From Hyphomonas sp. (GTDB taxonomy: Bacteria; Pseudomonadota; Alphaproteobacteria; Caulobacterales; Hyphomonadaceae), in NCBI GenBank assembly GCA_017792365.1, contig CP051229.1, positions 2,108,001-2,172,000 of the forward strand: a stretch of DNA of 64,000 nucleotides. The letters are read 5' to 3'. Below are positions 42,149-48,363 of the stretch, piece after piece; the first letter of the stretch is position 1, and the number at the start of each line of letters is the position of its first letter. The translations under genes were made by a program, and so were the position numbers. The notes below the pieces were generated by a model. That model was not told the origin of the DNA. It saw only the letters and a program-made list of their open reading frames with translations, and searched no databases.

Positions 42149-42226
42149 GGAAACGCTTCTGCCCTTGTTCGCCACGGAATGGAACAGGTCCGGAACAATG
42201 GGGAGTTAACGATCCCCAACCCGTCA

Positions 42227-43934: not shown

Positions 43935-44006
43935 CCTCACGACAAACTAAACTGGATTAGTGACCAATCCCCTTGTTCGCTTTATGTTCTCGTTTCGGAG
44001 AACACC

Positions 44007-45257
44007 ATGGCTTCAAGAACCCTGATCCAGAAACTCGCCGTTCTCGCTGACGCAGCGAAGTACGACGCATCCTGCGCTTCATCGGGAACGCAGAAGCGCA
44101 ATTCGCTGGGCAAGGACGGCGTCGGCTCCACCGAGGGCATGGGCATCTGCCACGCCTACGCGCCAGACGGCCGCTGCATCTCTCTCCTCAAGATCCTGCT
44201 GACCAACTTCTGCATCTTCGACTGCCGCTACTGCATCAACCGCTCGTCCTCAAACGTCGAGCGCGCCCGGTTCACGGTCGAGGAAGTCGTCTCCCTCACG
44301 CTCGACTTCTACAAGCGCAACTACATCGAAGGCTTGTTCCTATCTTCCGGCATCATTCGCTCGCCCGACTACACGATGGAGCAACTCGTCGAGGTCGCGC
44401 GCCGCCTGCGGATCGACCACAACTATCGCGGCTACATCCACTTGAAGACCATCGCCGAAGCCGATCCGCTCCTGATCGAGAAGGCGGGCCGCTACGCCGA
44501 CCGCCTGTCCGTCAACATCGAACTGCCGACCGAGACTAGCCTCACGCAGTACGCGCCGGAAAAGTCCGGCCCCACCATCCGCAAGGCGATGGCCGACGTC
44601 CGCAGCAACATCGAGACAACGACCGAAAAGGCGCCCGATCGCGGCAAACCGCCGCCGCGCCCGCCGCGCTTCGCGCCCGGAGGCCAGTCGACACAGATGA
44701 TCGTCGGCGCCGACGCCTCCATCGACCGCGACATCCTCTCGACCTCGGCGCGCCTCTATTCCTCCTACAAGCTGCGCCGCGTCTACTATTCCGCCTACAG
44801 CCCCATCCCCGACGCCAGCAGCGACCTGCCGCCCGTACGTCCGCCGCTGCAGCGCGAACATCGCCTCTACCAGGCCGACTGGATGATGCGGTTTTACGGC
44901 TACGAACATGCCGAGATCGCCGGTGCCGATACAGGCGGAATGCTCGATCTCGACATCGACCCAAAGCTCGCCTGGTCGCTGCGCAACCGCGCCTACTTCC
45001 CCGTCGACGTCAATCGCGCCTCAAAGGAGCAACTGCTCCGCGTTCCCGGCTTCGGTCCCGGCACGGTCAAGAAGATCCTATCATCCCGCCGCCACGCCCG
45101 GCTCAGGCTGGATCATCTCTCCCGGATATCCCGCTCGATCTCCAAATCCCTGCCCTTCATCACCGCGGCCGACTGGACCCCCGGCGCCCTCACCGACAGC
45201 GACAGATTGCGCGCGCGCTACACGCCAGAACCGGAGCAGATGTCGCTGTTCGCATGA
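44007..45257 (+). CDS. Radical SAM protein, putative DNA modification/repair (TIGR03916 type)
   Basis: 416 residues. The radical SAM cluster motif is C69-x3-C73-x2-C76 (CIFDCRYC). A long conserved core includes the family's LFLSSGIIRSPDYT, and a helix-hairpin-helix DNA-binding element sits near the C-terminus (about 333-358, NRASKEQLLRVPGFGPGTVKKI). The family is always found with a DUF4130/uracil-glycosylase-like partner, and here that partner starts within the stop codon (ATGA overlap). The chemical substrate is unknown; a DNA lesion is the standing guess. Confidence 0.9.
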   Translation: MASRTLIQKLAVLADAAKYDASCASSGTQKRNSLGKDGVGSTEGMGICHAYAPDGRCISLLKILLTNFCIFDCRYCINRSSSNVERARFTVEEVVSLTLDFYKRNYIEGLFLSSGIIRSPDYTMEQLVEVARRLRIDHNYRGYIHLKTIAEADPLLIEKAGRYADRLSVNIELPTETSLTQYAPEKSGPTIRKAMADVRSNIETTTEKAPDRGKPPPRPPRFAPGGQSTQMIVGADASIDRDILSTSARLYSSYKLRRVYYSAYSPIPDASSDLPPVRPPLQREHRLYQADWMMRFYGYEHAEIAGADTGGMLDLDIDPKLAWSLRNRAYFPVDVNRASKEQLLRVPGFGPGTVKKILSSRRHARLRLDHLSRISRSISKSLPFITAADWTPGALTDSDRLRARYTPEPEQMSLFA

Positions 45258-46711
45258 TCGCCGTCGACCTCAAATCCGAGACCGACTTCGCCAGCTGGCG
45301 CACCCGCGCCCGCAGCCTGCTTGCGGCCGACATCCAGCCCGGAATGATAGCCTGGCGCACCAACCCGGCCGACCGCGACCTCTTCGGCGAGCAACCATCC
45401 CCGCTCCCCGAACGCGACATCAAGGTCCGCGTCCCTCGCCAGTTCCTCACCCTCGCCGAACGCGCCGCATGCCACCGTGACGATGAACGGTTCGCGCGCC
45501 TCTATCGCCTGCTCTATCGCCTCCACCACCGCGACTGCGCCCTCAGCGACAAGTCAGACCCGGACATCATCTGGCTCGAAAAACGCGACAAGGCGGTCCG
45601 CCGTGACATCCACAAGATGCACGCCTTCGTCCGCTTCCGCGCCTCGGGCGTCTCGGAATTCGGCCGCGAACAATTCGGCGCCTGGTTCGAGCCCGACAAC
45701 TACATCGAGGAACTAGCCGTCCCCTTCTTCGTCCGCCGCTTCCCCAACATGGACTGGCTGATCGTCACGCCCCGGCGCACGGCTCGCTATGTCGACGGCG
45801 AACTCACCTACACCGACGGCGGCGCCCGCGATCAGCTGCCCGCAGAAGACGCCGTCGAAGACCAGTGGCGCACCTACTTCGCCTCGATCTTCAATCCCGC
45901 CCGCCTGAAGACCAAGGCGATGACGGCCGAGATGCCCAAACGCTACTGGAAGAACCTGCCCGAAGCGCAACTCATCCCGTCCCTGATCGCAAGCTCGACA
46001 ACCCGCGCCCGCGAGATGCAGGCCGCCGCGCCCCAGCCCGCAAACCCGCGCGCCGCAACCATCATGCGCCAACGCGAGCTGACCGCCCCTCAAGCCGAAC
46101 CCCTAAACACCCTCGCCGCCGTAAACGCCGCCGCCCGTACCTGCACACGCTGCGATCTCTGCCGCCATGCCTCGCAAACCGTACTCGGCGAAGGCCCGCA
46201 ATCCGCGCGGCTGATGATTGTCGGCGAACAACCAGGCGACCAGGAAGACATCGCCGGGCGCCCCTTCATCGGCCCCGCCGGCAAACTCCTCGACCAGTCG
46301 CTCGCCCATTCCGGCATCGAGCGTTCAACGACCTACCTCACCAATGCCGTGAAGCACTTCAAGTTCACGCCGCGCGGCAAACGCCGCATCCACTCGAAGC
46401 CGAACGCCGGTGAAATCAATCAATGCCGCTGGTGGCTGAACCTCGAACGCGAATTCGTCCAGCCCGAGATCATCCTCGCCATGGGCGCCACCGCCCTGCG
46501 CGGCGTGCTGGGCCGCGCCGGCAGGCTCACCGACTATCGCGGACAGACGCTGGAAATCGCAAAAGGCGTCACGCTGCTCACAACCGTCCACCCGGCCTAC
46601 CTGCTCCGCCTCCCGGATGCCGACCGGCGCGAACAGGAACTGGCCCGCTTTCGCGCGGACCTCGCCCAGACAGCCATGCTTTTGGAAGAACGGACCCGCG
46701 CTAGCGGATGA
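45254..46711 (+). CDS. udgX: UdgX-family uracil-DNA crosslinking domain fused to DUF4130 (TIGR03915)
   Basis: 485 residues in two parts. Residues 1 to about 250 match the DUF4130/TIGR03915 partner of the radical SAM enzyme. Residues about 285-480 are a family-4-like uracil-DNA glycosylase with Fe-S cysteines beginning C297-x2-C300, motif A GEQPGDQED (324-332), and motif B H446-P (VHPAYLL). Crucially the KRRIHS loop at 376-381 is present: in UdgX the His (here H380) replaces the water-activating step and becomes covalently bonded to the abasic sugar after uracil removal. So this is expected to crosslink to uracil DNA rather than turn over. It overlaps the radical SAM stop by four bases. Confidence 0.9.
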   Translation: MIAVDLKSETDFASWRTRARSLLAADIQPGMIAWRTNPADRDLFGEQPSPLPERDIKVRVPRQFLTLAERAACHRDDERFARLYRLLYRLHHRDCALSDKSDPDIIWLEKRDKAVRRDIHKMHAFVRFRASGVSEFGREQFGAWFEPDNYIEELAVPFFVRRFPNMDWLIVTPRRTARYVDGELTYTDGGARDQLPAEDAVEDQWRTYFASIFNPARLKTKAMTAEMPKRYWKNLPEAQLIPSLIASSTTRAREMQAAAPQPANPRAATIMRQRELTAPQAEPLNTLAAVNAAARTCTRCDLCRHASQTVLGEGPQSARLMIVGEQPGDQEDIAGRPFIGPAGKLLDQSLAHSGIERSTTYLTNAVKHFKFTPRGKRRIHSKPNAGEINQCRWWLNLEREFVQPEIILAMGATALRGVLGRAGRLTDYRGQTLEIAKGVTLLTTVHPAYLLRLPDADRREQELARFRADLAQTAMLLEERTRASG

Positions 46712-47150: not shown

Positions 47151-47768
47151 TTAGCCGGCGGGCGCGAGGCCCTTCAGCGCAACCCGGATCAGATCGCCTT
47201 CCTTGGCCCCCTCGCCAAGGTCGCGCGCAGCCTGCGCAACCGCCCGCGCGGCGTCCGCCTGCCCATAGCCAAGGTTCACCAGAGCCGAGACCGCATCTGC
47301 GCGCGCTCCGGATTGCGGCGCCGCCACAGCCGGATCCGCGCCCGGCGTGAACGTCCCGAACAATCCGCTCGGCGGCGGCTTGCCCTTGAACTCGGTGATG
47401 ATGCGCTCCGCCAGCTTCTTGCCGACGCCATTCGCCCGCTGGATCGACGCGACATCGCCCAGCGCCAGCGCGTCCATCAACTCGTTCGGCGCCAGCGTGT
47501 CGAGGATCGCCAGTGCGACCTTGGCGCCGACCCCCGGCGCATCCTGCAGACGCGAAAACCAGGCCCGCTCGTCCGCCTGCGCGAACCCGAACAGCTTGAT
47601 CGCATTCTCCGACATCTGGGTTTCGACGAAAATCTCGGCCGCCTCCCCCACGCTCAGTCGTGACAACGTACGCGACCCCGCATGCAAGAGGTATCCAACG
47701 CCGCCGACATCGACGAGCGCCTGCCCATCGCCGATCGCCGCCACGCTTCCCCGCAGCCGCGCGATCAT
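47151..47768 (-). CDS. ruvA: Holliday junction protein RuvA
   Basis: Binds four-way junctions and recruits RuvB. 205 residues from MIARLRGSV at 47768. It has an N-terminal OB fold (LVDVGGVGYLLHA), two helix-hairpin-helix motifs (LQDAPGVGAKVALAIL, IQRANGVGKKLAERII) and a C-terminal RuvB-contact domain after a flexible linker. The start overlaps the ruvC stop by four bases. ruvB is elsewhere in the window. Confidence 0.96.
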   Translation of the reverse strand: MIARLRGSVAAIGDGQALVDVGGVGYLLHAGSRTLSRLSVGEAAEIFVETQMSENAIKLFGFAQADERAWFSRLQDAPGVGAKVALAILDTLAPNELMDALALGDVASIQRANGVGKKLAERIITEFKGKPPPSGLFGTFTPGADPAVAAPQSGARADAVSALVNLGYGQADAARAVAQAARDLGEGAKEGDLIRVALKGLAPAG

Positions 47769-48280
47769 CCGTTGACCACGCGCAGCTTCATGCTCAGTTC
47801 CGGCCCCATGTGATGCGCGCAACAGACCGCCGCAGCCAGCGCATCGGCGGCGTCCGCGGTCACATTCCCCGCCTTCGGCAGCAATCGCTTGATCATGAAC
47901 GCGATCTGGTCCTTGTCCGCCGCCCCGGTGCCGACCAGCGACTGCTTGATCTTTCGCGCGGCAAATTCCGATACCGCCAGCCCGCGCGACGCCAGGGCCG
48001 CCAGCGCCGCGCCCCGCGCCTGTCCCAGCAACAGCGTCGACCGCGGATTAACGTTCACGAACGTCTCCTCCACCGCCGCCACCGTCGGCTTGTACTCCTC
48101 GACAATCTTTCCAATGCCCGTGCTGAGCTCCGCCAGCCGGCGCGCCAGCTCGGCGTCCACGTCCGGCGAAATCACGCCATGCGCCACCCACGACAGGCGC
48201 GGCCCGGCCACATCGATTACGCCCCAGCCCATGCGCCGCAGGCCGGGATCGACTCCAAGGATACGCACCGAATCCGGCAT
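47765..48280 (-). CDS. ruvC: Crossover junction endonuclease RuvC
   Basis: Resolves Holliday junctions by paired nicking. 171 residues. The four acidic catalytic residues are visible: D11 in ILGVDPGLRR, Glu in AAVEETFVN, and the Asp pair of the C-terminal VTADAADALAAA segment. It is the promoter-proximal gene of ruvC-ruvA. Confidence 0.96.
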   Translation of the reverse strand: MPDSVRILGVDPGLRRMGWGVIDVAGPRLSWVAHGVISPDVDAELARRLAELSTGIGKIVEEYKPTVAAVEETFVNVNPRSTLLLGQARGAALAALASRGLAVSEFAARKIKQSLVGTGAADKDQIAFMIKRLLPKAGNVTADAADALAAAVCCAHHMGPELSMKLRVVNG

Positions 48281-48363
48281 TCGCGTCTCTCCACTATCAG
48301 CGAACGATAAGGGAACAGCTCAATCTTAAGAAGCCGGAAACCGGCGAAGGTCAGATTTTCGCG

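Follow-up and report, generated by a model that had tools for sequence, protein, structure and literature searches.

At this locus a UdgX-type uracil-DNA domain is fused behind a DUF4130 domain and encoded directly downstream of a radical-SAM gene, which raises the question of whether uracil capture and radical chemistry form a single device or are separable activities brought together in one operon. The earlier note on this DNA had read the three parts as one DNA-lesion system, in which the radical enzyme possibly releases or processes the crosslink left by UdgX. The evidence presented below, drawn from the window (the whole 64,000-nucleotide stretch of Hyphomonas sp. DNA that was analysed) and from related loci and genomes, strengthens the lesion-system part of that reading by a conserved LexA box and speaks against the single capture-and-release device, since the pair of radical-SAM and DUF4130 proteins and UdgX also occur apart.

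The operon and its LexA box

The first gene (44007..45257; this and all features below are on the plus strand unless otherwise stated) encodes a 416-aa protein of the TIGR03916 radical-SAM family (543.5 bits, cut-off 343.5), and the second (45254..46711) a 485-aa DUF4130-UdgX fusion protein recognised by NCBIfam and Pfam profiles. The start codon of the fusion gene and the stop codon of the radical-SAM gene share an ATGA overlap (45254..45257), in line with the coupling of the two genes proposed in the earlier note, and short gaps or overlaps also separate the two genes in most homologous operons. The same operon is present in 79 of 80 related loci, a recurrence far beyond chance expectation; the exception (L079) is a 3,055-base contig on which the fusion begins at the contig edge. 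The closest relatives of the operon are found in the Hyphomonadaceae (Henriciella, Ponticaulis), and a PADLOC scan matched no defence family.

The protein families, their linkage and the widespread combination are already known. NCBIfam holds a linked set, TIGR03914, TIGR03915 and TIGR03916 (UDG_fam_dom, SAM_7_link_chp and rSAM_link_UDG), in which the linkage is recorded in the model names; the window genes match all three well over the cut-offs, and the window operon is a member of this set with no difference from it. TIGR03916 is described there as a putative DNA modification/repair radical-SAM protein, and a 2013 paper ties DUF4130 to radical-SAM and UDG proteins. A literature search found no paper naming both UdgX and radical SAM, and the words "fusion" and "fused" are absent from two UdgX papers (PMC10359453, PMC10776899). 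The present work adds the analysis of separability, the conservation of the LexA box operon by operon and the cysteine pattern of the radical-SAM protein, all of which subscription papers may also hold.

A LexA (SOS) box, GTTCGCTTTATGTTC, is located at 43975..43989, 17 bp ahead of the start codon of the radical-SAM gene, and has the form of a direct repeat, GTTC-N7-GTTC, the published alphaproteobacterial LexA motif (PMC8565304). The same motif precedes the lexA gene of the host genome (box 733099-733113; LexA domain 732877-733062, minus strand). When searched in either orientation from 250 bp upstream to 30 bp inside the radical-SAM gene, GTTC-N7-GTTC was found at 80 of 87 orthologous operons, compared with 2.3% of 280-base stretches drawn at random from these loci. 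In the window overall the motif is not above chance (three found, 1.9 expected), so that the argument for LexA rests on position and conservation; on these sequence grounds the operon is probably LexA-controlled and inducible by DNA damage.

Two more boxes of this type are found nearby. One, GTTCCCTTATCGTTC (48302-48316, minus strand), sits immediately upstream of ruvC (47765-48280, minus strand), which is followed by ruvA (47151-47822, minus strand), and ruvC-ruvA is likely to be a second SOS operon near the first. The other GTTC-N7-GTTC (42182-42196, minus strand) has no obvious repair gene adjoining it and may be due to chance.

We take COG4277 to be the HhH/radical-SAM gene of the present operon. 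For a COG1573-COG4277 operon, SOS control has been predicted in Bacteroidetes, and a UDG system of this kind is said there to have been reported as SOS-controlled in Verrucomicrobia and Alphaproteobacteria (PMC8565304). The published operon likewise consists of two genes, for a UDG and a partner, under LexA control, and in the available part of that paper it is treated as a base-excision system, UdgX crosslinking not being discussed there. It is very probably the operon described here, whose SOS control would thus already be in the literature.

The radical-SAM protein and its DUF4130 partner

The radical-SAM protein matches the Pfam Radical_SAM profile (34.4 bits, cut-off 29.5) and carries a CX3CX2C SAM-cluster motif (C69, C73, C76; 44211..44234) that is invariant in 58 radical-SAM proteins. 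Three more cysteines, C23, C48 and C57 (44073..44177), are likewise invariant (58/58) and, standing beside the CX3CX2C motif, they lead to the hypothesis of an auxiliary Fe-S cluster, at which both sequence and model are hinting; their spacing is unlike the CX4CX5C of lipoyl synthase, and the predicted model, with a pLDDT of 81, falls to a low-confidence 50-60 or so in the stretch that contains them. Near the C terminus, the helix-hairpin-helix named in the earlier note is borne out by the HHH_3 profile (aa 333-362; 45003..45092), which in the window protein scores 25.8 bits, slightly below the Pfam cut-off of 27, and is matched at E <= 0.1 by 44 of 47 orthologues.

Among known structures the model comes closest to lipoyl synthase, HydE and biotin synthase (Z about 14-15), with which it shares a barrel fold (Z about 15, 210-227 residues), and the extra cysteines recall an auxiliary cluster; sequence identity is about 10-17%, the window protein has its HhH tail, and membership in these families is not claimed. 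The nearest NCBIfam models, 25 of which were listed, include MoaA, ThiH, HydE, LipS1 and BioB.

These comparisons bear on an alternative in which the radical-SAM protein would be a SplB-like enzyme for the direct reversal of pyrimidine photoproducts, and UdgX would share its SOS operon as an independent passenger. DUF4130-associated enzymes have indeed been named SplB-like photolyases (PMC3765255), and SOS control of the operon would suit such a function. However, the best structural matches are the three enzymes named above, three extra cysteines are invariant, and spore photoproduct lyase appears neither among the 25 listed NCBIfam models nor in the listed structure matches, an absence that is compatible with SplB kinship. 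We regard this alternative as unlikely. A search of openly available papers found no report on the activity of the radical-SAM enzyme or of the pair that it forms with DUF4130.

Viral scans found no DUF4130 relative, and a radical-SAM relative on two contigs; these IMG/VR contigs (L138, L139), with relatives at 63-65% identity, may be of phage origin or misbinned sequence from a host.

The partner domain, DUF4130, occupies aa 7-238 of the fusion protein (45272..45967) and is identified by TIGR03915 (197 bits, cut-off 112) as well as by the Pfam DUF4130 profile (130.5, cut-off 27), in agreement with the domain order given in the earlier note. Its AlphaFold model (aa 1-238) is confident (pLDDT 89), and VIA-align placed it mainly beside proteins of the DHH superfamily, namely PAP phosphatase (Z 8.1, the best), RecJ (7.5) and Cdc45 (about 6.9), with Z values in the range that the tool warns about. 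Foldseek gave a weak best E of 0.02, hhalign of DUF4130 against RecJ gave no signal, and the DUF4130 profile found nothing up to E 1 among PDB sequences. The resemblance of the predicted fold to DHH/DHHA1 proteins, without sequence support, is therefore best taken as a lead. Seven polar residues (R16, R117, H120, R127, E146, R162 and R217) are invariant or nearly so, which suggests an active or nucleic-acid-binding surface.

Core pair and accessory UdgX

Gene content was surveyed in 190 genomes of the class and 249 of the phylum, and both fused and unfused forms were found. UdgX was scored as present at E <= 1e-50, a threshold at which fragments could be missed. The genomes are related to one another, there is overlap between the two samples, and the co-occurrence counts given here ignore shared ancestry; a significance test that assumes independence should carry no weight. 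The genome of Caulobacter vibrioides, included as a control, has all three families above cut-off. In the class sample nine genomes have the radical-SAM and DUF4130 pair, seven of them with UdgX (six fused, and G033 with UdgX on another contig) and two, G162 and G175, without it; UdgX also occurs in nine further genomes that do not have the pair. In the phylum sample the radical-SAM protein was found in 39 genomes, every one of which also has DUF4130, and two more have DUF4130 but not the radical-SAM protein (G389, and G373 near a contig edge).

UdgX was found in 29 of these 39 pair genomes against 9 of the 210 others, an association which, together with the fusion and the gene overlap, favours one device in which UdgX would capture uracil sites and the radical-SAM/DUF4130 pair would release or process the UdgX-DNA crosslink. 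On the other hand, 10 of the 39 pair genomes have no UdgX and nine genomes have UdgX without the pair, which disfavours a crosslink-releasing role to which the radical enzyme is dedicated. The pair-only alphaproteobacterial operons L179, L180, L182 and L183, moreover, retain the LexA box, and RecA-dependent pathways or proteases have been proposed to resolve UdgX adducts (PMC10359453). A single capture-and-release device thus appears improbable. Taken together, the pair without UdgX, UdgX without the pair and the LexA box in pair-only operons indicate that the substrate of the radical enzyme is most likely independent of UdgX adducts, which would be handled elsewhere without the radical enzyme.

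By gene content, therefore, the core is formed by the radical-SAM and DUF4130 pair, with UdgX as a separable accessory. In the pair-only alphaproteobacterial operons the linker past DUF4130 is kept to profile position 271-278, suggesting from the sequence that UdgX was lost in these lineages. On the radical-SAM tree, for which unfused rows were picked deliberately, the fused and unfused labels change about seven times, with at least three changes forced by well-supported branches.

Two further loci depart from the common arrangement. L177, in a genome that lacks the radical-SAM gene (G389), carries a DUF4130-UdgX fusion gene that has a LexA box at its start. L178 (G182) is a decaying operon: it has a LexA box, the radical-SAM protein is reduced to its final third, the DUF4130 domain is cut short, and a different ORF contains a weak UdgX remnant.

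The UdgX domain and the proposed function

The C-terminal half of the fusion protein is, by family score, motifs and residues, a textbook UdgX domain (aa 240-472; 45971..46669), with 314 bits against a cut-off of 189.95 for TIGR03914, the NCBIfam model named "UdgX family uracil-DNA binding protein", and with M. smegmatis UdgX chains (6ajo and others) as its best PDB matches (E 4e-50). The earlier note had recognised it by a KRRIHS loop with H380 and by GEQPGDQED (aa 324-332), and both motifs, as well as the numbering of the histidine, proved correct. From the alignment with the M. smegmatis chains and conservation among domain hits, motif A is GEQPG (E325, Q326; 46223..46237) and motif B is HPAYLLR (H446, R452; 46589..46609); between them is the R-loop KRRIH (aa 376-380; 46379..46393), with H380 as the predicted crosslinking residue.

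Eleven M. smegmatis residues, with roles taken from PMC10359453 and PMC10776899, were mapped by alignment onto the window protein (E52=E325, Q53=Q326, D56=D329, D59=D332, F65=F338, N91=N364, K94=K367, R107=R378, H109=H380, H178=H446 and R184=R452). All are present and nearly invariant among the aligned domain hits, including the counterparts of the D56-D59-R107 bridge (D329, D332, R378) together with F338, N364 and K367. R378 and H380 are found in 123 of 123 hits aligned at the R-loop, a number that includes overlapping loci and is not one of independent genomes. The remaining two of the 125 aligned hits are a fragment (L181) and a second UDG of the host (L002, G000:C1:3339435-3340004), an ordinary family-4 type enzyme with GEGPG and without the R-loop, which makes it a negative control for the UdgX signature.

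The idea that the domain is an ordinary multiple-turnover uracil-DNA glycosylase in a fusion draws on its membership in the family-4 UDG superfamily (TIGR00758, 123.5 bits, slightly below the cut-off of 125.3) and is very hard to credit, since GEQPG and the R-loop residues R378 and H380, both invariant in related fusions, are the UdgX signature (R107 and H109), and mutants of H109 acquire ordinary glycosylase activity (PMC10359453). These residues would accordingly predict that the UdgX domain bonds covalently to uracil DNA through H380. C297, C300, C391 and H368 are also conserved among the UdgX domain hits and may be the ligands of a 4Fe-4S cluster. The M. smegmatis structures (PDB 6ajo, 6ail, 6ioa, 8iie) have the same motifs, catalytic residues and KRRIH R-loop as the window domain; unlike the window fusion, their solved chains are of about 205-230 aa and are without DUF4130.

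The reading that we prefer, with a probability of roughly 0.7, is that of a LexA-controlled damage operon, in which a radical-SAM and DUF4130 core acts on lesions or modifications of DNA or nucleotides and UdgX, fused to DUF4130 here and in many related Alphaproteobacteria, binds uracil sites. Upon SOS induction both proteins would be made, and the radical-SAM protein and DUF4130 would act together, in a reaction of their own, with the helix-hairpin-helix of the former holding DNA; we infer that the radical-SAM and fusion proteins form a complex and that a lesion is what they act on. After excising uracil, the UdgX domain would remain attached covalently, via H380, to the abasic sugar, and its fusion may bring the core pair to uracil or abasic sites, or shield such sites, during the SOS response. 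More specifically, and as a tentative proposal that we consider possible at best, the pair could be an unrecognised two-cluster radical enzyme, induced in the SOS response, whose chemistry changes lesions in DNA or nucleotides (e.g. by inserting sulfur or by removing a damaged base through a radical reaction), with a partner domain of DHH-like fold and with the fused UdgX anchoring it covalently to uracil or abasic sites.

The physiological role of UdgX has been termed largely unknown (PMC10359453). Through its fusion here to a module whose SOS box is conserved across many Alphaproteobacteria, uracil capture is linked with the response to DNA damage, and the SOS-box operon offers a genetic handle on the role of UdgX. 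The core pair, present in 39 of the 249 phylum genomes, is catalogued only as putative, and its chemistry, if shown, would add a new reaction to DNA repair or modification.
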